The translations under genes and the position numbers were made by a program. From positions 1 to 24,201 of the IMG/VR virus record IMGVR_UViG_3300009159_000311: DNA of 24,201 nucleotides; one strand, 5' to 3'. Numbering within the stretch: the stretch's first letter is position 1; every line of letters starts with the position of its first letter. Of the stretch, positions 7,133-17,931 are shown one piece after another. Source of the stretch: a virus. A model generated the notes under the pieces. That model was not told where the DNA came from. It searched no databases and was given only the letters and a program-made list of their open reading frames with translations.

Positions 7133-8787
7133 GCATCAACCTATCGGCACTGATGAAGCAGCGGTACGACACCGCTGCAAACTGGACAGCTCAGAACCCA
7201 ACGCTACTGTCGGGCGAGATCGGCATTGAGTCGGACACTAAGAAGTGGAAGGTCGGCACCGGGTCCACCGCCTGGACCAGCCTGACGTACGCGATCGGCG
7301 GCACCTACCCGATCGTCAATGCAGACATTGCAGCGGGTGCTGCGATCGCCTACAGCAAGCTGGCCACGCTTAGCAGCGGGAACATCGTCCTTGGCAGCGC
7401 CGCTAACGTAGCGACCAGCACGGCAGTTACAGGTGATGTAACCATCAGTAGCACGGGTGTAACTGCGATTGCATCTGGTGTGATCGTCAATGCAGACATC
7501 AACGCATCTGCTGCTATCGTTGACACCAAACTAGCCACTATTGCCACGGCAGGTAAGGTCAGCAATAGTGCAACTACTGCAACCAATGCTAACACTGCGT
7601 CGGCAATAGTTGCCAGGGATGCAAGTGGTAACTTCAGTGCTGGAACGATTACGGCAGCACTAACAGGCACAGCATCCGGCAACCTAGTGAGCGGTGGAGC
7701 ACTCGGCACACCATCTAGTGGCACGCTAACTAACTGTACATTCCCAACACTTAACCAAAACACTACTGGCAACGCAGCCACCGTTACCACCAACGCCAAC
7801 CTAACCGGTGATGTTACCAGCGTTGGCAATGCTACCGCTATTGCTGCTGGGGTAATTGTTGATGCAGACGTGAATGCAAGTGCGGCAATTGTTGACACCA
7901 AGCTGGCCACCATCGCAACAGCAGGTAAGGTCAGCAACTCAGCCACCACAGCCGCCAGCGCCAACACGGCAAGCGCGATCGTAGCGCGTGATGCGTCTGG
8001 TAACTTCACCGCAGGCACCATCACCGCAGCACTGACTGGAGCGGCATCTGCTAACGTGCTGAAGGCTGGCGACACCATGACCGGCGTCCTAGCCGTCACA
8101 GCAGGCACCGCAGCACTGCCGGGCATTGCCGTATCAGGTGACCTCAACACCGGCATCTACAGCCCTGGCGCTGACCAGATTGGGATTAGCACTGGCGGCA
8201 CCTCACGCATCGTCGTTGATGCAAGCGGTAATGTCAACATCGACAGTGGCACGTTCTACGTTGATGGCGCAATTATTTTCACTGCTTCAAGTGGGTCCGT
8301 AACGCTAAGCAATACCGATACAGCCTTGCTTCCCGATGGCGGTTTTGGTCAATATCTTCGGATGGGCAATACTTATGGAAGCGGCAAAACTTATATTACA
8401 TTCACATACAACGGAACCCAAATTGGACTTATTAGCGCAAACTCAACTTCATCAGTCTCTTACTCGACATCTTCCGACTACCGACTCAAGGAGAATGTAA
8501 GGCCAATCACCGGAGCCGCTGCTCGGATCCTGCAACTAAAGCCCAGCCGCTTCAACTTTATTCCCGATCCTGACCAGACAGTTGACGGCTTCCTCGCCCA
8601 CGAAGTTCAAGCCGTTGTCCCCGAGGCTATCCACGGCGAAAAGGATGCCGTTGATGCTGACGGGAATCCCGTCATGCAAGGCATCGACCAATCCAAGCTG
8701 GTGCCACTGCTGACGGCTGCGTTGCAGGAAGCCATCGCCAAGATCGAAGCCTTGGAGACTCGGCTATCCGCCCTGGAAGCAGCGTAG
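7129..8787 (+). CDS. Tail fibre with C-terminal S74 self-cleaving chaperone domain
   Basis: This 552-aa fibre has three visible parts. Residues about 1-55 hold the phage N-terminal module LLSGEIGIESDTKKWKVGTGSTAW, typical of fibre attachment ends. Residues 56-330 are low-complexity Ala/Thr/Val beta-repeat shaft including two 66-aa copies (118-183 and 242-307). The C-terminus carries the peptidase S74 intramolecular chaperone: SDYRLKENVRPI at 449-460, FNFIPD, and VDGFLAHEVQAVVPEAIHG. By family knowledge the Ser/Lys pair five residues apart (S449 and K454 here) cuts before the serine after trimerisation, releasing a chaperone of about 104 aa that ends in a coiled coil (IAKIEALETRLSALEA). It is the likely host-range determinant. 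The start has AGGAG and overlaps the previous stop by ATGA. Confidence 0.92.
   Translation: MSINLSALMKQRYDTAANWTAQNPTLLSGEIGIESDTKKWKVGTGSTAWTSLTYAIGGTYPIVNADIAAGAAIAYSKLATLSSGNIVLGSAANVATSTAVTGDVTISSTGVTAIASGVIVNADINASAAIVDTKLATIATAGKVSNSATTATNANTASAIVARDASGNFSAGTITAALTGTASGNLVSGGALGTPSSGTLTNCTFPTLNQNTTGNAATVTTNANLTGDVTSVGNATAIAAGVIVDADVNASAAIVDTKLATIATAGKVSNSATTAASANTASAIVARDASGNFTAGTITAALTGAASANVLKAGDTMTGVLAVTAGTAALPGIAVSGDLNTGIYSPGADQIGISTGGTSRIVVDASGNVNIDSGTFYVDGAIIFTASSGSVTLSNTDTALLPDGGFGQYLRMGNTYGSGKTYITFTYNGTQIGLISANSTSSVSYSTSSDYRLKENVRPITGAAARILQLKPSRFNFIPDPDQTVDGFLAHEVQAVVPEAIHGEKDAVDADGNPVMQGIDQSKLVPLLTAALQEAIAKIEALETRLSALEAA
7480..7677 (+). repeat. Fibre shaft repeat, copy 1
   Basis: Codes for 66 aa beginning VIVNADINASAAIVDTKLAT and ending TAALTGTAS. 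By my codon-by-codon reading it matches copy 2 (7852-8049) at 60 of 66 residues, while 46 of 66 codons differ. Confidence 0.9.
7852..8049 (+). repeat. Fibre shaft repeat, copy 2
   Basis: Codes for 66 aa beginning VIVDADVNASAAIVDTKLAT and ending TAALTGAAS, 372 nt downstream of copy 1 and in the same frame. The protein is nearly identical to copy 1, but the codons are mostly different. Confidence 0.9.
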
Positions 8788-10402: not shown

Positions 10403-10918
10403 GTGCCGCTTCCCGACTACGAGATCCATCACCTGTGCAGCAAGCACGCGATGGTGGTGCCATTTGATCCTGATCTGGTCAACCCGGCCAGCATCGACGT
10501 GCTGCTTGGTGATCGGCTGATGGTCGAGGTGGAGTACCGCCACGAGCTGGAGATCCTCGGTATCGCCCACTACACCCAGGCCGATCCCTACTGGCTGGCG
10601 CCGGGTGAGTTCTGCCTGGCGGAAACCCGCGAGATCTTCAACCTGCCGGATTTTCTGGTGGGGGTGTTTTTCCTGAAGAGCAGCAGAGCTAGGGAAGGGC
10701 TCGAGCACAGCCACGCAGGCCTGGCTGATCCAGGGTGGTATGGCAGTCGGTTGACCATGGAGCTCACCAACGCTCGGCGCTATCACTCGATCGCGATGTG
10801 GCCTGGCATGAAGATCGGCCAGATGGTCTTCCAGAAGATGGATGGCATCCCGGCCCGCACCTATGCGGTAACAGGTCGCTACAACATGGATGAGGCCGTC
10901 ACGGCAAGCAAGGGCTAA
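10403..10918 (+). CDS. dcd: dCTP deaminase
   Basis: A 171-aa protein of the dCTP deaminase/dUTPase superfamily. It deaminates dCTP to dUTP, feeding dTMP synthesis during phage DNA replication. Conserved blocks are visible in order: PASIDVLLGD (28-37), LAPGEFCLAET (65-75), FFLKSSRAREGL (89-100), AGLADPGWYGSRLTMELTN (105-123, with E120 at the catalytic glutamate position), GMKIGQMVF (135-143) and YAVTGRYNMDEAVTASKG at the end. The start is GTG 10403; the frame is closed by TAA at 10373 and no better start exists. It is the only + gene between the lysin and the accessory region, and its last 20 nt overlap a - strand gene tail to tail. Confidence 0.92.
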   Translation: MPLPDYEIHHLCSKHAMVVPFDPDLVNPASIDVLLGDRLMVEVEYRHELEILGIAHYTQADPYWLAPGEFCLAETREIFNLPDFLVGVFFLKSSRAREGLEHSHAGLADPGWYGSRLTMELTNARRYHSIAMWPGMKIGQMVFQKMDGIPARTYAVTGRYNMDEAVTASKG

Positions 10919-11439: not shown

Positions 11440-11468
11440 ATGAAATAAAGCCCCGCCGAAACGGGGCT
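11440..11468 (-). terminator. Intrinsic terminator (- strand)
   Basis: On the minus strand AGCCCCG-TTTCGG-CGGGGCT makes a 7-bp GC-rich hairpin (plus positions 11468 down to 11449) followed by TTATTTCATTT. It lies 7 nt after the stop of the 55-aa gene at 11476. Confidence 0.75.
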
Positions 11469-11475
11469 GGCGCAA

Positions 11476-11643
11476 TCAGCGGATGTGGTAGTTGCCGTTG
11501 GCCCAGCTGATCAGCTCCTGCTCGGTCATGGCCCGCTGAGGAGCGCCGGTTCCAAAAGCAAAAAACTGGCGGCCTTGAGCGTCGGCGGGAACGGTGGCGA
11601 CGTTCTTGCGGAGCTGGACTTGAGCGAGGGTGGTGAAGGTCAT
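11476..11643 (-). CDS. Hypothetical 55-aa protein
   Basis: The frame is open further upstream, but ATG 11643 is chosen because it lies about 40 nt after a promoter element (-10 at 11684-11689) and has the CACACC...CATGACC context shared with two other starts. The product is MTFTTLAQVQLRKNV...FFAFGTGAPQRAMTEQELISWANGNYHIR, without a recognised domain; the TEQELISWANGN end looks helical. It is a single-gene unit bounded by promoter element A upstream and a hairpin terminator downstream. Confidence 0.65.
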   Translation of the reverse strand: MTFTTLAQVQLRKNVATVPADAQGRQFFAFGTGAPQRAMTEQELISWANGNYHIR

Positions 11644-11683
11644 GTTTTGGTGTGAGTGGTGAGCCTCTCGGCCCGATGAAAGA

Positions 11684-11743
11684 ACTATACACCACCGGCA
11701 GCGCATGATTGGGCACCGGGTCGGCCAGTTAACGGTCTGTAAC
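11684..11743 (-). promoter_or_regulatory. Promoter/operator element, copy A
   Basis: Minus strand: -10 TATAGT (plus 11684-11689) directly after the 18-nt block TGCGCTGCCGGTGGTGTA (11688-11705), with the dyad GTTACAGACCGTTAAC (11728-11743) further upstream. The 18-nt block is identical in copy B (12092-12109), with the -10 in the same place. No canonical -35 is seen, which suggests an activated promoter. Confidence 0.65.
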
Positions 11744-11759
11744 AATCGGCGGGTTGCAA

Positions 11760-11777
11760 GGGCCGCCGAAGCGGCCC
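11760..11777 (-). terminator. UUCG tetraloop hairpin after the 64-aa gene
   Basis: Minus strand GGGCCGC-TTCG-GCGGCCC, a perfect 7-bp stem with the very stable C(UUCG)G loop, 8 nt after the stop at 11786. The following bases (TTGCAACCC) are not T-rich, so it may be a transcript-end stabiliser or a weak terminator. Confidence 0.6.
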
Positions 11778-11785
11778 GGTGAGGG

Positions 11786-11980
11786 TCAGGCGGCGACCCA
11801 GCCCTGCTTTAGCAGTTTGCGGTAGTTGAAGTAACGTGCTTCATGTGGCGGAGGATCAGACGGCAGCCAGTTAGCTTGCGTGTCGGACCACTCGCGCCAG
11901 CAACCGGCGGCCCATGCCCAGCAACGGAAGTCGAGTTCAGCGTAATCAAGATGTGGACGTGTCACGGATGCGCTGGTCAT
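11786..11980 (-). CDS. Hypothetical 64-aa Trp-rich protein
   Basis: Small protein with many aromatics (FRCWAWAAGCWREWSDTQANWLPSDPPPHEARYFNYRKLLKQGWVAA) and no recognised domain. The start ATG 11980 has the context CACACCGAGAGCCATGACC and overlaps the stop of a 28-aa reading frame (ATGA). It lies in the unit driven by promoter element B and is followed by a UUCG hairpin. The tryptophan-rich centre and two cysteines could form a small binding module, but no function can be assigned. Confidence 0.6.
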   Translation of the reverse strand: MTSASVTRPHLDYAELDFRCWAWAAGCWREWSDTQANWLPSDPPPHEARYFNYRKLLKQGWVAA

Positions 11981-12063
11981 GGCTCTCGGTGTGGGGTGGA
12001 TTGCCAGATTGGGTGCGGCTCTGGCGGCCCGGTGATTTGCTTGGTGAGGGTGAAGGTAATCAT
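11977..12063 (-). CDS. Possible 28-aa leader peptide
   Basis: ATG 12063 opens MITFTLTKQITGPPEPHPIW..., ending at TGA 11977-11979, which overlaps the next ATG by ATGA. It begins about 25 nt after the -10 of promoter element B and fills the otherwise long leader. It could be a coupled small protein or a leader peptide that admits ribosomes to the 64-aa gene. Evidence is limited to position and coupling. Confidence 0.4.
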   Translation of the reverse strand: MITFTLTKQITGPPEPHPIWQSTPHREP

Positions 12064-12087
12064 CGGTCGGTGGCGGTTGATGTGTAA

Positions 12088-12138
12088 ATCCTACACCACC
12101 GGCAGCGCACCCCCCCTTCCCCGTTCACAATCCGTAAC
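12088..12138 (-). promoter_or_regulatory. Promoter/operator element, copy B
   Basis: Minus strand -10 TAGGAT (plus 12088-12093) adjoining the 18-nt block identical to copy A (12092-12109), with the upstream dyad GTTACGGATTGTGAAC (12123-12138). The block-to-dyad distance is 9 nt shorter than in copy A, close to one helical turn. A C7 run (12110-12116) lies between the two parts. Confidence 0.65.
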
Positions 12139-12191
12139 ACTCCAGCCGATCAGGTCGCGTCCGTTACCCTTGGCCTAGCGGCGGTCATCCC

Positions 12192-12377
12192 ATGCAGGCT
12201 TTCCTGATCGAGATCACCGCAAAAGTGATCTACCGCTCCGATACCGAACCAGACGAGCTGCCGGCTGATCTTTACAGCCGCATCACAGAGCACATCGGCA
12301 ACGACGACGACATCCTCGAGCTTTCAGTCGAGGCCTTGCCCCTGCCGCTCGATCTCGGTGGAAAAAGCACACATTGA
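12192..12377 (+). CDS. Hypothetical 61-aa acidic protein
   Basis: A short + strand gene upstream of the HNH nuclease and overlapping it by 20 nt. The protein (QAFLIEITAKVIYRSDTEPDELPADLYSRITEHIGNDDDILELSVEALPL) alternates strands and helices and is acidic. Upstream lies GTTACCCTTGGC, a sequence partly shared with the region before the gene at 23445, and the divergent promoter element B is within 60 bp. No family recognised. Confidence 0.6.
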   Translation: MQAFLIEITAKVIYRSDTEPDELPADLYSRITEHIGNDDDILELSVEALPLPLDLGGKSTH

Positions 12378-12663
12378 CGGCACCCGCCTGGTCACCCGGC
12401 GATCAGCCCGTGATCAGATCCACCTCGCCTGGAACTACGAGTGTGCCTACTGCGGCGATCCGCTCGGTCGCAGCCCCACCCTCGATCACGTCGTGCCCAA
12501 GGTGTTCGGCGGCCTCACCGTCCGCGAAAACCTAGTCAGTTGCTGCCTCATGTGCAACAGCCAGAAAGGTCACAAGCCATGGGTTGACTGGTATCGCGCG
12601 CAGCCGTTCTGGTCATCCCTTGGCGAGTGGGCAATCGTGCGCTGGATGGCAGGTGAGTCCTAG
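12358..12663 (+). CDS. HNH endonuclease
   Basis: A 101-aa HNH protein from GTG 12358. The motif is complete: a zinc pair C29-x2-C32 (CAYCGD), the core DH at 43-44 (TLDHVVPKVFGG), N58 (RENLVSCC) and the second zinc pair C63-x2-C66 followed by N67 (LMCNSQKGHK). Such proteins nick or cut DNA and serve as packaging-linked nucleases or free-standing homing endonucleases. This one is small, far from any terminase gene, and sits with one small gene as a + strand insertion inside a - strand block, which suits a mobile or homing element (inference). Its stop codon shares the tetramer CTAG with the stop of the opposite gene. Confidence 0.88.
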   Translation: MEKAHIDGTRLVTRRSARDQIHLAWNYECAYCGDPLGRSPTLDHVVPKVFGGLTVRENLVSCCLMCNSQKGHKPWVDWYRAQPFWSSLGEWAIVRWMAGES

Positions 12664-12986
12664 CGGTCGGCCACGAACAGCTCACAGCGTGCCGCAAACC
12701 GGCCGCCGCTTTGCCGCGCTTCGGGGAAATCAAAACCGCATCCCTTGCGCGTTGCCTCCCATTGAATGCAGTCCCAGCACATGCGCGGCGCATCGTCAGG
12801 CCGGATCTTGGCACGTGCCATCTGGTAGATCGACTGCGCGCGCAGCATCGCATCCTGCAGCCGGATGGCGCCTGTGTCGGCCTCGACCTGGTGCTCAGGC
12901 TTCGGGCCAAGTACCACCCGGGCGCGCCAGGTACGGTCGGCCCGATCGCAGAAGAGAAGCAACCGGCCGCCGTACAGGCTGATCAT
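12660..12986 (-). CDS. Hypothetical 108-aa protein with four-cysteine zinc-like motif
   Basis: The C-terminal half carries C70-x2-C73-x9-C83-x17-C101 (RMCWDCIQWEATRKGCGFDFPEA...GRFAARCELF), a probable structural zinc site. The N-terminal half (ISLYGGRLLLFCDRADRTWRARVVL) is a beta hairpin-like region. I recall similar small proteins with this Cys pattern in phages but no function. Its ATG overlaps the upstream stop by ATGA, making it the last gene of the long - strand small-gene operon. Confidence 0.75.
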   Translation of the reverse strand: MISLYGGRLLLFCDRADRTWRARVVLGPKPEHQVEADTGAIRLQDAMLRAQSIYQMARAKIRPDDAPRMCWDCIQWEATRKGCGFDFPEARQSGGRFAARCELFVADR

Positions 12987-13225
12987 TCCGCCTCACCGAA
13001 ACTTGGCGCGTGATAGATCCGCTCCAGGACCATGCAAGCCGGATCGGGGTTCTGAAGACCCGAGACGACATAGCTCGCCACTGGGTCCGTTCTATCGGCT
13101 GAAACGAACACGATCGAGGTGTCACGTTCCTTCACCACCAGCAGGCTGGTCCGCGGGCTGCGCACCAGCAGCGCAACCGTCAGCCGTTCCCAGAAGGTCA
13201 AGGTGGCCAGATGCGAGGCTTTCAT
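12983..13225 (-). CDS. Hypothetical 80-aa protein
   Basis: Start ATG 13225 is chosen over an earlier in-frame start because it overlaps the DUF3310 gene stop by ATGA. The product (KASHLATLTFWERLTVALLVRSPRTSLLVVKERDTSIVFVSADRTDP...VVSGLQNP) has a mildly hydrophobic N-terminal third, too polar for a clear membrane span, and a beta-rich middle. No family recognised; it is coupled on both sides by ATGA overlaps. Confidence 0.65.
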   Translation of the reverse strand: MKASHLATLTFWERLTVALLVRSPRTSLLVVKERDTSIVFVSADRTDPVASYVVSGLQNPDPACMVLERIYHAPSFGEAE

Positions 13226-13431
13226 GGCTCCAGTTTGCCGAGCAACCGGGCGAGATACCACTGCCCCTTAGCCAGTGAGTCCTCGCCCTTGTGCCGCTCG
13301 CGCCAGATGTACTTGATCGCGTTCCCCTTGCAGTAGCCGCGGAACTCCTCTGGCGTCAGTGCGGCCTCGATCGCGTCGATGCACTCGATCTCGCCTTGGC
13401 GGTAGTGCGGCGGCTGGTTGACCAAATCCAT
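13222..13431 (-). CDS. DUF3310 family small protein
   Basis: A 69-aa protein with the DUF3310 pattern: NQPPHYRQGEIECIDAIEAAL, TPEEFRGYCKGNAIKYIWRERHKG, then LAKGQWYLARLL. DUF3310 proteins are common in phages and of unknown biochemical role, sometimes described as nucleotide-kinase-like. ATG 13431 is chosen because it begins exactly where the conserved region starts and lies 1 nt after the upstream stop. The 3' end overlaps the next ATG by ATGA. Confidence 0.85.
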   Translation of the reverse strand: MDLVNQPPHYRQGEIECIDAIEAALTPEEFRGYCKGNAIKYIWRERHKGEDSLAKGQWYLARLLGKLEP

Positions 13432-13432
13432 G

Positions 13433-13735
13433 TCAGATAACAGTGCGGGTCTGGTAGTTGGGATCCTCAGGATCAGGGCCGAAGCCGCTGGCATCAGTTG
13501 CAGGCGCTGCTGGCACCGGCTCGGCAGGTTTGACCTCCAGCCAGGCGCGCAAGGCGTCTCCGGTTGGGGTCTTCTTGGGCCAAGCAATGAAGCGCAGCAG
13601 CTCCTTGGTGTCGGTGAACAGCATGGAGACATGGGGGCGCCAGGCCATGTAGCTGACGCCGTTCCAGCGATCGTGGCGGCGTTCAATGCGCAGGCCGCTG
13701 GCGGTAAACGTGTCAGCGATGGCCCCACCTCTCAA
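13433..13735 (-). CDS. Hypothetical ~100-aa protein, uncertain start
   Basis: The frame continues upstream into the neighbouring gene, so only part of it is likely used. Candidate starts are TTG 13735 (RGGAIADTF...) or GTG 13756; no ATG is suitably placed, and the next internal one would give a truncated product. The body (ASGLRIERRHDRWNGVSYMAWRPHVSMLFTDTKELLRFIAWPKKTPTGDALRAWLE) is followed by a Pro/Ala-rich disordered tail. It overlaps the end of the upstream gene, like others in this operon. No family recognised. Confidence 0.55.
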   Translation of the reverse strand: MRGGAIADTFTASGLRIERRHDRWNGVSYMAWRPHVSMLFTDTKELLRFIAWPKKTPTGDALRAWLEVKPAEPVPAAPATDASGFGPDPEDPNYQTRTVI

Positions 13736-14045
13736 GGGCGGCGCGGATAGAAGCACAGAACTCTTCTTTTGTGAAGCAGCGCTGCCAGCCATGAATATCA
13801 GGGTCCATTGCCTCCAATGGCACTTCCGTGGCAGCCTCCGCCCATTCTTCAATCTCCTCATCCGTCGGCGGCTCCGGCGGTGGGGTGGCTAGGGCGGCAG
13901 CAGTTGCAGCCATAGCGTCCATGAGTTTTCCCGTTATCTCAACGGATGACATCTTGCTAGCGGCTGGGTGCCTCAGCCCTGTGTAAAGCTGAATTGCCAC
14001 CAGCAGCTCCCTGCACAAAGCGCGAAAGTCCGGGGTGGTGATCAT
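13713..14045 (-). CDS. Hypothetical 110-aa protein with PPP-EE-W motif
   Basis: ATG 14045 overlaps the upstream stop by ATGA. Residues near the N-terminus (PDFRALCRELLVAIQLYTGL) are helical. The middle has TPPPEPPTDEEIEEWAEAATEVP, sharing a proline run, acidic pair and Trp with two other proteins of this operon (coded at 14256 and 14812). The C-terminus (WQRCFTKEEFCASIRAALERWG) has two cysteines. I recall this composition from small hypothetical proteins of cyanobacterial phages. Confidence 0.7.
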   Translation of the reverse strand: MITTPDFRALCRELLVAIQLYTGLRHPAASKMSSVEITGKLMDAMAATAAALATPPPEPPTDEEIEEWAEAATEVPLEAMDPDIHGWQRCFTKEEFCASIRAALERWGHR

Positions 14046-14263
14046 GGTTGGTTCTCCAGTTCGGTGGCGATGGCATAAATCTCTTGGTGAAGCTCCCACA
14101 TTTCAACGCTCCACTGAACGTTAATCGTTTGATCGGCAATAGCGTAAAGGGCGGCGGCTAGTGCTTCACGTTCCGGGTCGTGGGTCAGGCACGTCACCAT
14201 TGGATCTAGCTTGGCGTCCCAAGCATCTAACACCGCCTGAGCAGCGGGTGATAGTTCAGTCAT
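14042..14263 (-). CDS. Hypothetical 73-aa protein
   Basis: ATG 14263 is chosen because it sits 8 nt inside the end of the upstream gene (ATGACTGA overlap). The sequence (LSPAAQAVLDAWDAKLDP...REALAAALYAIADQTI) contains the LSPAAQAV and REALAAAL-AIADQ pieces that I recognise from small phage proteins of unknown function; the rest is helical. Its stop is coupled to the next start by ATGA. Confidence 0.7.
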   Translation of the reverse strand: MTELSPAAQAVLDAWDAKLDPMVTCLTHDPEREALAAALYAIADQTINVQWSVEMWELHQEIYAIATELENQP

Positions 14264-14612
14264 TGGGCAAAGCCTCCAGGGCGAGGCGGATAGTGTCGTC
14301 AGAGCTGTGTCCACATGCTTCAGCTAGCTTCTCCAACGCCTTGAGTCGCTTTAGCGCCTCCTCCTTCAAGCTCGGCAGCTTGGGGCGGCGAGAGTATTGA
14401 AGATCTTTTGCCAATGAAGGCATGTCAGCAGCGCAAGGATCTTTCAACCACTCACAACACGCCTCCAGCTCCTGGTCGGCACCCCATTGGGCGGCGCGAT
14501 CAATCATCCAATCCTCTCGTTGAACGCTAATAACAAAAAAGGGACATTCTGATTGCCACTGGCGCCTTAACTCTTCAGGCGGTGGTGTGATCGGGAAAGA
14601 TTGGTCAGTCAT
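14256..14612 (-). CDS. Hypothetical 118-aa protein, TPPPEEL family
   Basis: Begins TDQSFPITPPPEELRRQW, an N-terminal signature I associate with a widespread family of small cyanobacterial and phage proteins. The centre has DRAAQWGADQELEACCEWL, also characteristic, and the rest is charged helix (LKEEALKRLKALEKLAEAC). Function unknown; the modular look suggests a protein-interaction role (inference). The start shares one base with the upstream stop (TAATG), and its own stop overlaps the next gene by 8 nt. Confidence 0.75.
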   Translation of the reverse strand: MTDQSFPITPPPEELRRQWQSECPFFVISVQREDWMIDRAAQWGADQELEACCEWLKDPCAADMPSLAKDLQYSRRPKLPSLKEEALKRLKALEKLAEACGHSSDDTIRLALEALPND

Positions 14613-14815
14613 TAAGTCTCCATGTTGTGTTTTTTAGCGTGTTGCTTGCAGTACATCCCATCAGGGCCGTGGCCGCGCTTGCGGCTGCATTGATGTGGAA
14701 TCCGACCGTCAGATGGCCAAACTTCTTCAATACAGCGGGTCGGATCTTCAGCCTGGCCCATATAGCAACCGCTCCAAACGCCATAACGACGCTCGCCGTT
14801 GATAATGCGTGTCAT
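14612..14815 (-). CDS. Small putative zinc-binding protein (67 aa)
   Basis: The C-terminal half reads HQCSRKRGHGPDGMYCKQHAKKH, whose Cys and His residues (C43, H49, C56, H59) can form a zinc knuckle, a pattern recurring in short phage proteins. Two further cysteines (C17, C28) lie upstream. No function is known to me; a nucleic-acid or protein-binding finger is plausible. Start overlaps the upstream stop by ATGA. Confidence 0.7.
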   Translation of the reverse strand: MTRIINGERRYGVWSGCYMGQAEDPTRCIEEVWPSDGRIPHQCSRKRGHGPDGMYCKQHAKKHNMET

Positions 14816-15189
14816 CGCCCTGCCTCCTGCTCAAGTATGTCGGGGGCGTCAACCCAGTGCCGTTCACGCAGCCACCTCGCCACCTCCCGGCTGCCGGCCT
14901 GGCCGTGTGCTACGCCGAGGTCGTAGATGGCGCGGCGGGAAACCCACGGCCTGCAGCCCTTCTCAGAGTTCCAAATCTCACGCAGCTCCTCATCCGTCGC
15001 CACCGGGGGCGGGAGCATTTTCGTGGCGCCAGGAGAATGGTCGGCCTGGGCCTCCAGTGCCTCAACGCGGGCGCGGAGTTCAAGGATGCAGCGAAATGCG
15101 GAATCCCCGGTCATTGCCTCGCTGCTAGCCTTGCTCCAGTCGTACCTGTCAGCAGACCACTGCTCAGGTGTTGCCTCGTACTTGTTCAT
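14812..15189 (-). CDS. Hypothetical 125-aa protein with PPP-DEEL-W motif
   Basis: N-terminal part: EATPEQWSADRYDWSKASSEAMTGDSAFRCILELRARVEALEA, helical with a short coiled coil. Middle: LPPPVATDEELREIWNSEKG, the motif shared with the proteins at 13713 and 14256. The C-terminus (AIYDLGVAHGQAGSREVARWLRER) is a helix-rich segment I recognise from small cyanobacterial phage proteins. Start ATG 15189 is 8 nt after the RlpA-like stop, in the context AAAAACCATGAAC, without a Shine-Dalgarno. Confidence 0.75.
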   Translation of the reverse strand: MNKYEATPEQWSADRYDWSKASSEAMTGDSAFRCILELRARVEALEAQADHSPGATKMLPPPVATDEELREIWNSEKGCRPWVSRRAIYDLGVAHGQAGSREVARWLRERHWVDAPDILEQEAGR

Positions 15190-15197
15190 GGTTTTTG

Positions 15198-15515
15198 TTA
15201 GTGGTTAATTTGAACTTGTGCGGTGCCATCAAGCGGCACACCAAGGCGATAGGCGGCACCGGCTGATAGGTCGATGCTGTTGCAGTCGCACCGGTCACGG
15301 ATCGGCACCACCAGCGATCGGCTGCCGTGGGTGACGCGGACCCTGGCGCCACAGGGCAGCCATGGATGCGCGGCGCTGATGCCCCAGTGCTGATAGGGAC
15401 GGCCAGTGCAATAGTCAGGGCGGCCTGCATACCACGGGTCATAGACCGTGGCAGTCACGGTGCGTGCCTGGGCTGGCGCGGCGAGCATGGCAAGCAGCAA
15501 TAGAAGCATCCTCAT
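15198..15515 (-). CDS. Secreted RlpA-like double-psi beta-barrel protein
   Basis: The 105-aa product has an N-terminal signal peptide (MRMLLLLLAMLAAPAQA, cleavage likely after residue 17) followed by a small DPBB-like domain: VTATVYDPWYAGR, LPCGARVRVTHGSRSLVVPIRDRCDCNSIDLSAGAAYRLG. The VPIRDR...IDLSAGAAYRLG block corresponds to the conserved RlpA/expansin strand and helix. Family members act on or bind peptidoglycan; several cysteines suggest disulfides in the periplasm. ATG 15515 is chosen because AGGGAAG lies about 6 nt upstream and it overlaps the previous stop by ATGA. A lysis aid, or a change to the envelope during infection, are both possible. Confidence 0.8.
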   Translation of the reverse strand: MRMLLLLLAMLAAPAQARTVTATVYDPWYAGRPDYCTGRPYQHWGISAAHPWLPCGARVRVTHGSRSLVVPIRDRCDCNSIDLSAGAAYRLGVPLDGTAQVQINH

Positions 15516-15799
15516 GCCCACTTCCCTAGCAGGTGGCGGCGGCAGGTGGCGATCGCCTGATGCGCTTGCTTAGGCGTCATCACTGAACCGGTGTCATCCA
15601 TCGCCTGGCACACGTCAGCGTGCAACTGCTGGTAGTCGGCATCCCTGAAGTTCGGGCCGATGTCAGAGCAGAACTCCTGCCACAACCCCGTGTAGGTCGA
15701 GCGCAGCGGGTGCCCCTGTGACAGGGCAGCGCGGCCGCTGCGGGCATAAAGCGCGTCCATCATCGTGGCGCGTTGAAGGTCAAGTTGATGGGGTTTCAT
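15512..15799 (-). CDS. Hypothetical 95-aa helical protein
   Basis: Helical protein (KPHQLDLQRATMMDALYARSGRAAL...TYTGLWQEFCSDIGPNFRDADYQQLHADVCQAMDDTG...MTPKQAHQAIATCRRHLLGK) with three cysteines and no known domain. Coupled by ATGA to genes on both sides. The following gene's Shine-Dalgarno is inside its 3' end. Confidence 0.65.
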   Translation of the reverse strand: MKPHQLDLQRATMMDALYARSGRAALSQGHPLRSTYTGLWQEFCSDIGPNFRDADYQQLHADVCQAMDDTGSVMTPKQAHQAIATCRRHLLGKWA

Positions 15800-16002
15800 G
15801 AGTGATCTTGTAGTGCTTGGCGAATGTGGAGCAGTTCTTCACGGCGGGCTGCGACGTGCGCATTGCCAGGCAGCTGGCGCAGGTCTTCCAGTCGGATGTC
15901 GATCAGCCGGCAAAGCCGCAACCGCTCGTCCTGCTGTCCAGCATGGAACATGCCGGAATCGCTGATCAGCGCCTCCAGCTTGGCGCGGATGTCGTCAGCC
16001 AT
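15796..16002 (-). CDS. Hypothetical 68-aa charged helical protein
   Basis: ATG 16002 shares one base with the upstream stop (TGATG) and has GAAGG about 8 nt upstream; a GTG one codon earlier is possible. The protein (ADDIRAKLEALISDSGMFHAGQQDERLRLCRLIDIRLEDLRQLP...AARREELLHIRQALQDHS) looks like two amphipathic helices forming a hairpin. No family recognised. Confidence 0.65.
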   Translation of the reverse strand: MADDIRAKLEALISDSGMFHAGQQDERLRLCRLIDIRLEDLRQLPGNAHVAARREELLHIRQALQDHS

Positions 16003-16238
16003 CACACCACCTTCACTTCAGCGCCGGGCCAGCGGGCTTGCGCATAGCCGATCGCGTGCCGCTTTGATTCCGCCCGGGTGATCCAGGTCATTGGCTGGGC
16101 GCCGGGCTTGAAGACCAGCAAGCGAAACTCCCGGGTTTGATTGCCGGATCGTGGTCGGCTCACACCTTCACCGTGCTGGCTGGTGGGCAGTTCTTCGCTC
16201 CACTGCCAAGGCAGCATTGCTCCTGTCGTCTTAGTCAT
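16002..16238 (-). CDS. Hypothetical 78-aa protein
   Basis: Small basic protein (TKTTGAMLPWQWSEELPTSQH..., then REFRLLVFKPGAQPMTWITRAESKRHAIGYAQARWPGAEVKVV). The C-terminal half looks like a beta-hairpin plus helix fold (RESKRHAIGYAQARWPGAEV-like), similar in style to the next upstream protein (AEAKLIAEQ). Start overlaps the upstream stop by 8 nt (ATGACTAA). Confidence 0.65.
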   Translation of the reverse strand: MTKTTGAMLPWQWSEELPTSQHGEGVSRPRSGNQTREFRLLVFKPGAQPMTWITRAESKRHAIGYAQARWPGAEVKVV

Positions 16239-16410
16239 GGATTGCTGGATCGGTAACGGTTTCAGGGTTGAGCCATTCCATCTCGGAGAACCACGGCAAC
16301 CAGCCAGACTGCTCGGCGATCAGCTTGGCCTCAGCCAGCGTGTGAGCCATGATGTACTCAATCACGCTGGCCGAACGGATCTGGAAGAAGAATTGGCGGG
16401 GGGTGGTCAT
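16231..16410 (-). CDS. Hypothetical 59-aa protein
   Basis: ATG 16410 is chosen because CAGGAG lies 9 nt upstream and it overlaps the stop of the small membrane protein gene by ATGA. The sequence (TTPRQFFFQIRSASVIEYIMAHTLAEAKLIAEQSGWLPWFSEMEWLNPE) suggests a strand, a helix with AEAKLIAEQSGW, and a second strand. This resembles small phage proteins with a 'residues accumulate in helix then W' layout but no named family. Confidence 0.65.
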   Translation of the reverse strand: MTTPRQFFFQIRSASVIEYIMAHTLAEAKLIAEQSGWLPWFSEMEWLNPETVTDPAIHD

Positions 16411-16550
16411 GGCTTCAACTCCTGATGAGCAGCCGGGTGATTGTGATGTGCTTGTGCAGCTTGCTGGTTGGCGTTGTCGTAGGCGAGGGCATAGACGGCA
16501 ACCAGCAAAAACAAGGCGGCGGCGCGGTTCATCCAGATGTTGGTGATCAT
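16407..16550 (-). CDS. Small membrane protein with His-rich tail (47 aa)
   Basis: A 47-aa gene fitting exactly between two neighbours with ATGA overlaps at both ends. The protein starts MITNIWMNR and has a hydrophobic segment (AAALFLLVAVYALAY, residues 10-24), either a membrane anchor or an uncleaved signal. It ends with a polar tail containing QAHHNHPAAHQ. The downstream gene's Shine-Dalgarno (CAGGAG) is inside it. Coupling, hydrophobic layout and a Shine-Dalgarno in the right place support it; no family is known to me. Confidence 0.65.
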   Translation of the reverse strand: MITNIWMNRAAALFLLVAVYALAYDNANQQAAQAHHNHPAAHQELKP

Positions 16551-16741
16551 GATGCGAGCGCCTTGCAGACGCGGTAACGGGTGAGGTTGAGGCGAGCAGC
16601 AATCTGACGCTGGCTGAGGCCGGTGCGGCGCAGGATGCGGACGCGGCGATCGTCGGAAGCGGTAAGCCAGTCGATCACGGCGATCATGACCAGCAGAGGC
16701 AGGAACAGCTTCCAGACCAGCAGGGCGGTAAAGGTGAGCAT
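16547..16741 (-). CDS. Membrane-anchored helix-turn-helix protein (64 aa)
   Basis: ATG 16741 gives MLTFTALLVWKLFLPLLVMIAVIDWL, a clear transmembrane segment (about residues 4-26). It is followed by DDRRVRILRRTGLSQRQIAARLNLTRYRVCKAL, a compact helix-turn-helix of the resolvase/LuxR type (residues 31-62). The protein would hold a DNA-binding head at the inner face of the membrane. The frame is open upstream but only this start yields the anchor at the N-terminus. Its stop overlaps the next ATG by ATGA. A role in tethering or sensing is inference. Confidence 0.75.
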   Translation of the reverse strand: MLTFTALLVWKLFLPLLVMIAVIDWLTASDDRRVRILRRTGLSQRQIAARLNLTRYRVCKALAS

Positions 16742-16751
16742 GGGGGGAGTG

Positions 16752-16776
16752 GGTAAGGGAAAAGCCCCGAAGGGCT
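16752..16776 (-). terminator. Intrinsic terminator with UUCG loop
   Basis: Minus strand AGCCC-TTCG-GGGCT (plus 16776 to 16763) then TTTCCCTTA. The stem begins at the stop codon of the 85-aa gene, so it ends that transcript, with probable read-through to the membrane HTH gene 11 nt further on. Confidence 0.65.
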
Positions 16777-17033
16777 CAGGCGATTTGCATGTCCCAGCCG
16801 TTGTCCTTGACTGAATCTGAAGAGATGTACCAGCGGTGGAAGTTGGCGGATTCGGAGCCATCGTGCCAAGCCTTGGCCTTAGCGCGCTTGGTCGGGTAGT
16901 GCTCGGGCCTTGTGGCGTGCTCGAACCAGACAGACTTCTCGGTGCGCTTGATGCAAGTGACGGGGAAAGATGAGTGAGCGCAGCTGAGGGAGCCGTAATA
17001 GGTCTGTCCGACTTGGAAAGGAGCGCGGGTCAT
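16776..17033 (-). CDS. Hypothetical 85-aa protein
   Basis: Small basic protein (TRAPFQVGQTYYGSLSCAHSSFPVTCIKRTEKSVWFEHATRPEHYPTKRAKAKAWHDGSESANFHRWYISSDS) with two cysteines and a Tyr/Trp/His-rich middle; the beginning resembles a small SH3-like or beta-barrel fold. Start context CACACCGCCAACCATGACC, about 40 nt after the -10 of promoter element C. It is a single gene between a promoter element and a terminator, as is the 55-aa gene at 11476. Confidence 0.65.
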   Translation of the reverse strand: MTRAPFQVGQTYYGSLSCAHSSFPVTCIKRTEKSVWFEHATRPEHYPTKRAKAKAWHDGSESANFHRWYISSDSVKDNGWDMQIA

Positions 17034-17074
17034 GGTTGGCGGTGTGGGTGGGAGGCCTCGTCGGCCGTCCCCTA

Positions 17075-17126
17075 ATTATCCCCCACCACCTGTGGCGCAT
17101 CAATCAGGCTGTTACAGATCGTAATG
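17075..17126 (-). promoter_or_regulatory. Promoter/operator element, copy C (variant)
   Basis: Minus strand TTGATG, 17 nt, GATAAT (plus 17075-17080) is a good sigma-70 promoter. The spacer contains GCGCCACAGGTGGTG, matching the 18-nt block of copies A and B at 13 of 18 positions (17082-17099). Upstream lies GTTACAGATCGTAAT (17111-17125), related to the A/B dyads. The upstream dyad overlaps the stop codon of the zinc ribbon gene. Confidence 0.65.
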
Positions 17127-17375: not shown

Positions 17376-17740
17376 CAGAACAGATCGTCATAAGACACGT
17401 CAACCACCTGCACCGGAGCAGCAGCAGGTGGCACCGCCGCCAGCAGGGCCTCCTCAATCGCCTTCAGCGTCTTGAAGTCCGCCTCGATCGAAAGCCCCAG
17501 ATATTTCACCCCACCCTGGCTGGTGTTGTTGTATCCGTTCACCCGCAGCGGCACCTCGCCATTGTCGTTTGGCGCTGCGTTCATGATGTAGCTGGCAAAC
17601 GCCATCCGGTCCTCCTCCTTGATTCCGAACACCCCGTCAACATCGGGATACTTCTTGCTGGCGTCGTACCGGTCACCCAGCCGCTGCTGCAGCTTCTCAG
17701 GGGTGTTCTTGAAGATGGCGCCTTTTATTTTGAAAGTCAT
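17375..17740 (-). CDS. Putative ssDNA-binding protein in the recombination operon
   Basis: A 121-aa protein (TFKIKGAIFKNTPEKLQQRLGDRYDASKKYPDVDGVFGIKEEDRMAFASYIMNAAPND..VPLRVNGYNNTSQGGVKYLGLSIEADFKTLKAIEEALLAAV) with beta-rich body, then an Ala/Pro linker and an acidic tip ending VVDVSYDDLF. The layout of a compact body, flexible linker and acidic tip with final Phe is that of SSB proteins, and the location next to RecT supports a ssDNA-related role. I cannot confirm an OB fold by eye, so this is inference. Start overlaps the HTH gene stop by ATGA. Confidence 0.5.
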   Translation of the reverse strand: MTFKIKGAIFKNTPEKLQQRLGDRYDASKKYPDVDGVFGIKEEDRMAFASYIMNAAPNDNGEVPLRVNGYNNTSQGGVKYLGLSIEADFKTLKAIEEALLAAVPPAAAPVQVVDVSYDDLF

Positions 17741-17931
17741 GGTTGGTCGTGGGTGATGGTGTTGGCCTTTTCGTATTGCCCCACCTCGGCCAGGGGATAG
17801 AGCACGCGCCCTTCAATGCGCACATAAGCTGGCCCGGTTGATTGCCGTCGCCAGCGAATCAAGGTCTGGCGATGAACCTGCCAACGCGCTGCCAGTTGCG
17901 CGTCGGTCAGAAACTCAGAAGATGTCGTCAT
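17737..17931 (-). CDS. Small helix-turn-helix (excisionase/MerR-like) protein
   Basis: A 64-aa protein: EFLTDAQLAARWQVHRQTLIRWRRQSTGPAYVRIEGRVLYPLAEVGQYEKAN. The order of helix, turn, recognition helix (QTLIRWRR), then YVRIEGRVLYPLAEV wing is the HTH_17/excisionase fold, which binds DNA to bend it or regulate. It may regulate the operon or, if an integrase exists outside the window, act in excision. Its first 17 nt overlap the end of recT in another frame, so its initial codons also code the RecT acidic tail. Confidence 0.8.
   Translation of the reverse strand: MTTSSEFLTDAQLAARWQVHRQTLIRWRRQSTGPAYVRIEGRVLYPLAEVGQYEKANTITHDQP

Follow-up and report, generated by a model that had tools for sequence, protein, structure and literature searches.

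A two-part promoter element before exchangeable small genes in an uncultured phage lineage, with a small zinc-ribbon protein as candidate regulator

Introduction

Phage morons and accessory hotspots consist of a foreign gene with its own promoter and a terminator-like hairpin, and they show high turnover at fixed places. In the present study, a putative two-part promoter/operator element standing before small accessory genes was analyzed in a 24.2-kb uncultured-virus fragment, IMG/VR record IMGVR_UViG_3300009159_000311 (positions 1 to 24,201; this whole stretch is hereafter called the window), in which three copies, A, B and C, lie on the minus strand, and in the relatives of this phage. Several described systems resemble this arrangement in part. 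The Ogr protein of phage P2 and the Delta protein of P4 are zinc activators with the motif CX2CX22CX4C and TGT-N12-ACA sites, and P2 has four such late promoters (PMC3931495). NrdR is a repressor that binds paired boxes, the centres of which are separated by approximately 3 or 4 helical turns (PMC12051234). The acr promoters contain consensus -35 and -10 hexamers, and an inverted repeat lies within their core (PMC9410906). In cluster K mycobacteriophages, the SAS/ESAS repeats occur in 11-19 copies at translation starts, with a half-site consensus that varies by subgroup (PMC3203893).

The closest named relatives of the window are the cyanosiphophages S-CBS3, S-LBS1 and S-CBS1, and S-CBS3 shares 70% DNA identity with the window across the gene of an HNH endonuclease. 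The lineage is plentiful in IMG/VR, with at least 581 HNH relatives, and a scan of 84,980 prokaryote species genomes with the HNH protein revealed distant HNH genes only and no prophage of this lineage. These phages are probably virulent, uncultured cyanosiphophages, and their hosts are probably tiny photosynthetic bacteria (cyanobacteria). No phage sigma factor was observed in 30 lineage records, 8 of which are longer than 40 kb.

Results

The three copies in the window were found as stated in the preliminary description of this sequence: a block of 18 nt is identical in A and B, for which only 0.04 matches at three or fewer mismatches are expected by chance, and the C block agrees with it at 13 of 18 positions, with TTGATG-17-GATAAT (17103-17075) in the same copy (Table 1). 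The proposal that such elements stand before small accessory genes and are conserved in related phages was borne out by a motif search, in which copies before genes were observed at more than 150 IMG/VR loci of this lineage. With a two-part position model, real elements scored 18-59 in approximately 700 kb of relatives, and no score exceeded 16.8 in dinucleotide-shuffled sequence totalling 815 kb, a comparison that excludes chance and says nothing on the sensitivity of the model, as the model was trained partly on the same elements. Relatives of approximately 36-44 kb carry one to three elements, mostly two, at two fixed places. The C type lies directly behind the zinc-ribbon gene and starts in the last codons of this gene, or, in a few genomes, follows an inserted gene; the B type is divergent from a gene pair encoding a 61-amino-acid (aa) protein (p61) and the HNH endonuclease. 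Of 175 zinc-ribbon genes, 166 were followed by a C element in an automatic search, which also recovered B at 149 of 173 places, and the C misses were loci with an inserted gene or a diverged element, plus one locus (L142) that was excluded because the zinc-ribbon search had brought in an unrelated NrdR-like protein. A is an extra copy; the B place of the window carries two tandem units, B and then A, and the distal type of A occupies the B place in loci L024 and L058.

In the core, A at -11 and T at -7 are present in 100% of the elements and are followed by a CA initiator, with A at +1 in 96% (B types) or 85% (C types) and C at -1 in 88% or 64%, respectively; the alignment chose the -10 partly by A-11 and T-7, and +1 played no part in this choice. 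A -10 with A2 and T6 and a purine +1 approximately 7 nt downstream are the marks of a sigma70-type promoter, and cyanobacterial promoters show the same -10 and +1 A signature, generally with no -35 consensus (PMC3219970). Matches to a -35 were not above chance in the B types and weak in the C types (3.7 of 6 positions, versus 2.65 in shuffled sequences). From their sequence features, the elements are very probably regulated promoters.

Upstream of this core, two further parts were observed. The distal part had been described as a GTTAC/GTAAC dyad; the sites are present, but across the family they are better read as two TGTNAC half-sites 10 bp apart, TGTGACRGATTGTGAAC in the B type and TGTGAAGAACTGTCACA in the C type. 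The C-type site is readable also as an inverted repeat, and the near symmetry of TGTNACA means that a dyad and a direct repeat cannot be separated here. For 76 of the 77 distinct C elements, the distance from the second half-site to the -10 downstream of it is 36, 37 or 38 nt, and in the B elements this distance is 45 nt (72 cases) or 33-37 nt (15 cases), with almost none between. The gap between block and distal site in the window is 19 nt in A and 10 nt in B, and this difference of 9 nt, correctly noticed before as about one helical turn, thus reflects a jump of this size that is seen across the family.

The proximal part is an 18-bp palindrome, TGCNCYG-N4-YGGNGYA, usually at -28 to -11, the positions -25 and -14 of which are complementary in 23/47 (13.9 expected) and 35/58 (22.4 expected) cases, a symmetric co-variation. 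In the C types, the distance from the distal site to the -10 has a standard deviation (SD) of 0.77, whereas the palindrome slides by 0, 3 or 5 nt (SD 1.68); in the window, the palindrome of C lies 3 nt farther from the -10 than those of A and B. Since the distal distance to the -10 is kept while the palindrome slides, the distal site would be held to the polymerase, like an activator site. Thus, the phasing favours an upstream activator plus a spacer operator of looser position, and weakens the earlier suggestion that a single protein touches both dyad and block.

Among the three regulators that had been suggested, the zinc ribbon is favoured. The cysteines C3, C6, C30 and C33 (CX2CX23CX2C) are invariant in this protein, PF22811 was matched in 35 of 35 members tested (best E 7.5e-9), and a predicted model with a mean predicted local distance difference test score (pLDDT) of 85.8 retrieved NrdR ribbons first in a PDB fold search (probability 1.00, E 0.004-0.15, approximately 1.1 A over 43-47 residues). 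No ATP-cone was matched in the zinc-ribbon proteins, which are mostly 75-106 aa long and end in a conserved tail, GW...KPVLRVPV, altered in the L137 lineage. Among the 86 HNH loci that extend 8 kb or more downstream, 84 carry the gene, and the two loci lacking this gene, those of S-CBS1 and S-CBS3, also lack the element; the element is likewise absent from S-LBS1, and no isolate or named phage in the collection carries the protein. Although 4 kb apart, the zinc ribbon and the B element were correlated (partial Mantel r=0.40 for the distal site and 0.44 for the block, p=0.002), whereas the small helix-turn-helix (HTH) protein gave r=0.17 and 0.06, respectively, and HNH and p61, which adjoin the B element, gave r between -0.19 and 0.16; these values are correlations from related, mosaic genomes and are no proof of binding. 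Locus L033 and loci L137 and L016 have identical small HTH proteins and exonucleases that are 95% identical, while their zinc ribbons are approximately 40% identical and their distal sites differ, and in L137 the B and C elements changed in parallel. Taken together, these results suggest that the zinc-ribbon protein is likely a regulator of these promoters.

The promoters are followed by exchangeable genes. The first open reading frames (ORFs) behind them fall into 55 clusters, of which approximately 31 occur at B, 26 at C and two at both places, and a safe figure is at least 50 families because a few single-member clusters may be mis-called ORFs. Between loci L007 and L010, identity is 94-100% in the promoter, 32-66% over one gene and then 94-100% again, and a similar pattern was observed between L172 and L173. 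Many units end in conserved hairpins, GGGCCGC-(TTCG/TCCG)-GCGGCCC at B and GAGCCC-(TTCG/TCCG)-GGGCTC at C; the T-run after the hairpin is short in most of these, so that transcription probably continues into the remainder of the operon. Only weak Pfam matches were obtained for 54 representative first genes, and no known anti-CRISPR was matched among them, the search consisting of Pfam on these representatives and PADLOC on the zinc-ribbon proteins only, without an anti-CRISPR library search. The unit start CACACC...CATGACC that had been reported is present, but in the B unit it stands before the second ORF, behind a 28-aa ORF. This 28-aa ORF lies at the normal B start site, overlaps the start of the next gene as ATGA, and could be read either as a remnant or as a leader with translational coupling.

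Table 1. Positions of the element copies and associated features in the window
Feature	Position	Strand	Remarks
Zinc-ribbon gene, 87 aa	17112..17375	-	NrdR-type ribbon, C3-C6-C30-C33, no ATP-cone; favoured regulator
61-aa ORF and HNH endonuclease	12192..12663	+	divergent genes marking the B place in relatives
C distal site CATTACGATCTGTAACAGCC	17107..17126	-	two half-sites 10 bp apart, overlapping the zinc-ribbon stop codon; equivalent position at ~170 zinc-ribbon loci
C proximal palindromic block TGCGCCACAGGTGGTGGG	17082..17099	-	13/18 as in A/B
C -10 GATAAT	17075..17080	-	TTGATG at 17098-17103; predicted +1 A 17068
C-unit 5'-proximal leader hairpin GGCC-GACGA-GGCC	17054..17066	-	
C-unit first gene, 85 aa	16776..17033	-	variable cassette; relative in L010 only
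Hairpin GAGCCC-TTCG-GGGCTT	16762..16777	-	starts inside the stop codon of the 85-aa gene
B distal site TGTTACGGATTGTGAACGGG	12120..12139	-	
B proximal palindromic block TGCGCTGCCGGTGGTGTA	12092..12109	-	
B -10 TAGGAT	12088..12093	-	predicted +1 A 12081; family consensus
B-unit first ORF, 28 aa, MITFTLTKQITGPPEPHPIWQSTPHREP	11977..12063	-	
B-unit second ORF, 64 aa	11786..11980	-	start overlaps the stop of the 28-aa ORF
Hairpin GGGCCGC-TTCG-GCGGCCC	11760..11777	-	behind the B unit
A distal site TGTTACAGACCGTTAACTGG	11725..11744	-	
A proximal palindromic block TGCGCTGCCGGTGGTGTA	11688..11705	-	identical to the B block
A -10 TATAGT	11684..11689	-	predicted +1 A 11677; family consensus
A-unit gene, 55 aa from ATG	11476..11643	-	relative directly behind B in L038
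Terminator-like hairpin AGCCCCGTTTCGGCGGGGCT	11449..11468	-	followed by TTATTTC; behind the A unit

Discussion

The anatomy, conservation and phasing of these elements, their co-variation with the zinc ribbon and the swapping of the genes behind them are read from the sequences; binding, the sign of regulation, timing and the host are inferred. Herein, we tentatively propose phage-specific promoters with a zinc-ribbon activator upstream, a palindromic operator and slots for exchangeable genes. The host (sigma70-type) RNA polymerase would start operons of small accessory genes at these promoters, each of which would consist of a core (-10 and CA initiator) with two control inputs. The pair of TGTNAC half-sites, in fixed phase to the core, would most likely be bound by the phage NrdR-type zinc ribbon, which would activate transcription as Ogr of P2 and Delta of P4 do; activation through the distal site is plausible, though less secure than the assignment of the regulator itself. 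The 18-bp palindrome would be the operator for a dimer, either of the zinc ribbon or of a second protein, and would probably set timing or shut-off. Each of the two fixed places, C directly following the gene of the zinc ribbon and B divergent from the HNH gene, would carry one exchangeable small gene, and the promoter together with the often present UUCG/UCCG hairpin would form a slot in which genes are swapped via homologous recombination.

The system that is functionally nearest to this proposed circuit is P2 Ogr/P4 Delta, although the zinc ribbon is not a member of that family. In both cases, a small phage C4-zinc protein is the regulator or candidate regulator, there are few promoters per genome, and a TGT...AC site lies upstream, here centred at approximately -50 or -59. 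Compared with TGT-N12-ACA, the B type is TGT-N12-AC(G/A/T) and the C type is TGT-N11-ACA. The ribbon differs from CX2CX22CX4C (PMC3931495) in having CX2CX23CX2C, only 3 of 35 members matched the Ogr/Delta profile PF04606 (best E 0.017, not significant), and the operons are accessory rather than late, with an additional palindrome in the spacer. By domain, the nearest system is NrdR, with which the protein shares the ribbon fold and family; the two parts of the element would correspond to two boxes approximately 3 or nearly 4 helical turns apart in most copies, with a palindrome that slides against the distal site. The phage system differs in the absence of the ATP-cone, the short phage-specific tail, the absence of ribonucleotide reductase genes as known targets, and a distal site that is phased to the -10 and not to the palindrome. 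As in acr-aca, a variable small phage gene stands behind a conserved promoter with an inverted repeat in the core, but the candidate regulator is an upstream zinc ribbon instead of a downstream HTH protein and the B types have no -35. As with SAS/ESAS, a conserved repeat stands before small non-structural genes of differing families, with half-sites that differ between phage subgroups; here, however, there are two to three copies of promoter class, with a -10 and an initiator. The own promoter, foreign gene, terminator-like hairpin and high turnover at fixed places are also those of morons, except that one promoter architecture is common to two places and to the whole lineage.

Several observations weigh against activation by the zinc ribbon, besides the mosaic relatedness behind the correlations. 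The preliminary description had linked the absent -35 to activator dependence; this argument has been dropped, since a -35 consensus is generally missing from cyanobacterial promoters (PMC3219970), so that the absence says little on activation, and the C types even retain a weak -35. NrdR itself represses through paired, helically phased boxes (PMC12051234), and overlap between the palindrome and the -10 would be in keeping with repression. The L137 lineage has an altered distal site and has kept the palindrome type, so that a single protein may not bind both. Loci L091 and L143 have differing zinc ribbons and the same B element, and in the 31 genomes possessing the membrane HTH protein, this protein was correlated with the B block at r=0.44. 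Repression of these promoters by the zinc ribbon is unlikely but deserves weight, and it overlaps with activation, since one protein could do both. In an NrdR-like scheme, which we consider rather doubtful, the ribbon would bind both parts as phased boxes and repress the promoters, so that transcription of the accessory genes would begin at entry and be turned off afterwards, as at acr-aca loci. The ribbon is indeed NrdR-type, there is overlap between the proximal box and the core promoter, each of the two boxes varies with the zinc ribbon, and most elements have 27.5-32.5 or 39.5 bp from one centre to the other, compared with approximately 3 or 4 turns for NrdR boxes (PMC12051234). However, in the C types the palindrome shifts against the distal site (25.5-32.5 bp between centres) while the distance from the distal site to the -10 stays fixed, the change of the distal site in L137 left the palindrome behind, the ATP-cone is absent, and the B promoters lack the -35 that acr promoters have in consensus form together with the -10 (PMC9410906).

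The remaining explanations are less probable. A host protein might be hijacked, with the 10-bp direct repeat serving as an HLR1-like site for the OmpR-type RpaB (or RpaA) and the accessory genes tied to light or redox state, and the HLR1 consensus, two (G/T)TTACA(T/A)(T/A) repeats with 2 nt between them, at approximately -45 to -60 in one promoter (PMC9241938), agrees in period and place, with 12 of 16 positions matched by A in the window. This is improbable, as the elements of the family match 6-12 of the 16 positions, mostly 8-11, and carry a conserved G in place of the T of HLR1, and the B and C elements of the L137 lineage changed together along with the zinc ribbon. It is similarly improbable that either HTH protein is the regulator: the small HTH gene (17737-17931) is present in 120 of 120 loci and shows the weak correlation with the B distal site given above, but identical small HTH proteins occur with different distal sites, and the membrane HTH protein (16547-16861), despite its correlation with the B block, is missing from 58 of 112 complete intervals. 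Finally, cassettes do get exchanged at the B and C places, and the elements might be unregulated promoters conserved through recent exchange by recombination and not through operator function; the symmetric co-variation of the palindrome, the fixed phasing and the joint changes of B and C within a genome make this very improbable.

It is possible, although we hold it with some reserve, that the whole lineage keeps two permanent plug-in slots under a phage transcription factor of a new class, namely an NrdR-type ribbon without the ATP-cone. Each slot would take one swappable small gene, of which there are at least 50 families, and would often end in a UUCG/UCCG hairpin. If so, the slots would be a reservoir of host-takeover or counter-defence proteins that could be found by reading downstream of the element, an uncultured lineage would have a specific regulatory circuit, and the small NrdR-type zinc ribbons carried by many phages would have a testable role. 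The element offers a sequence handle on swappable phage proteins, and counter-defence genes are often found in such places. Moreover, the parallel changes of B and C provide a natural system for the co-evolution of regulator and site.

Additional observations

The membrane HTH protein of the window is a small protein encoded on the minus strand that appears to have a single membrane helix, and its HTH shows a weak relationship to sigma region 4; it is the first C-unit gene in many relatives and absent from half. In loci L047 and L064, an extra HTH-like ORF (MTxTASELLxLRHRVPDSVLLDWLDLAQ...) lies between the zinc-ribbon gene and the C element.

The leaders also showed recurrent features. The B-unit leaders of relatives are commonly CATCaaccgcaccggaccgATG or similar. 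A short stem-loop near +3 was observed in 57 of 73 distinct C leaders, versus 26% of shuffles, and stem-loops just past +1 are present at 17054-17066 and 11661-11674 of the window and in the C leaders of relatives, with stems that vary but stay complementary (GGCC/GGCC, GCCC/GGGC, GGAGG/CCTCC) and loops that are often GNRA-type; these 5'-proximal structures possibly protect the mRNA 5' end. At the C place of loci L014, L025, L029, L043 and L021, a conserved, G+C-rich structured leader of approximately 150 nt replaces the short hairpin leader, and no Rfam match was obtained for it in the four loci searched. Rfam likewise gave no match in the window region. In many C leaders, the hairpin CCACTCGGCAGCCCAGAGGCTGCGCTGA (GCAGCC-CAGA-GGCTGC) is conserved right before the first gene of unrelated cassettes, for example near 11440 in L068 and near 4060 in L040.

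Elsewhere in the window, the ORF at 15198-15521 (minus strand), within the accessory operon, encodes a signal-peptide-like protein that by eye resembles RlpA-type cell-wall proteins, and a dCTP deaminase-like ORF, also recognized by eye, lies at 10403-10918 (plus strand), convergent with the accessory genes. A 236-nt repeat, the copies of which are 70% identical, is present at 7462-8069 (plus strand) inside a tail-fibre-like gene of 552 aa.

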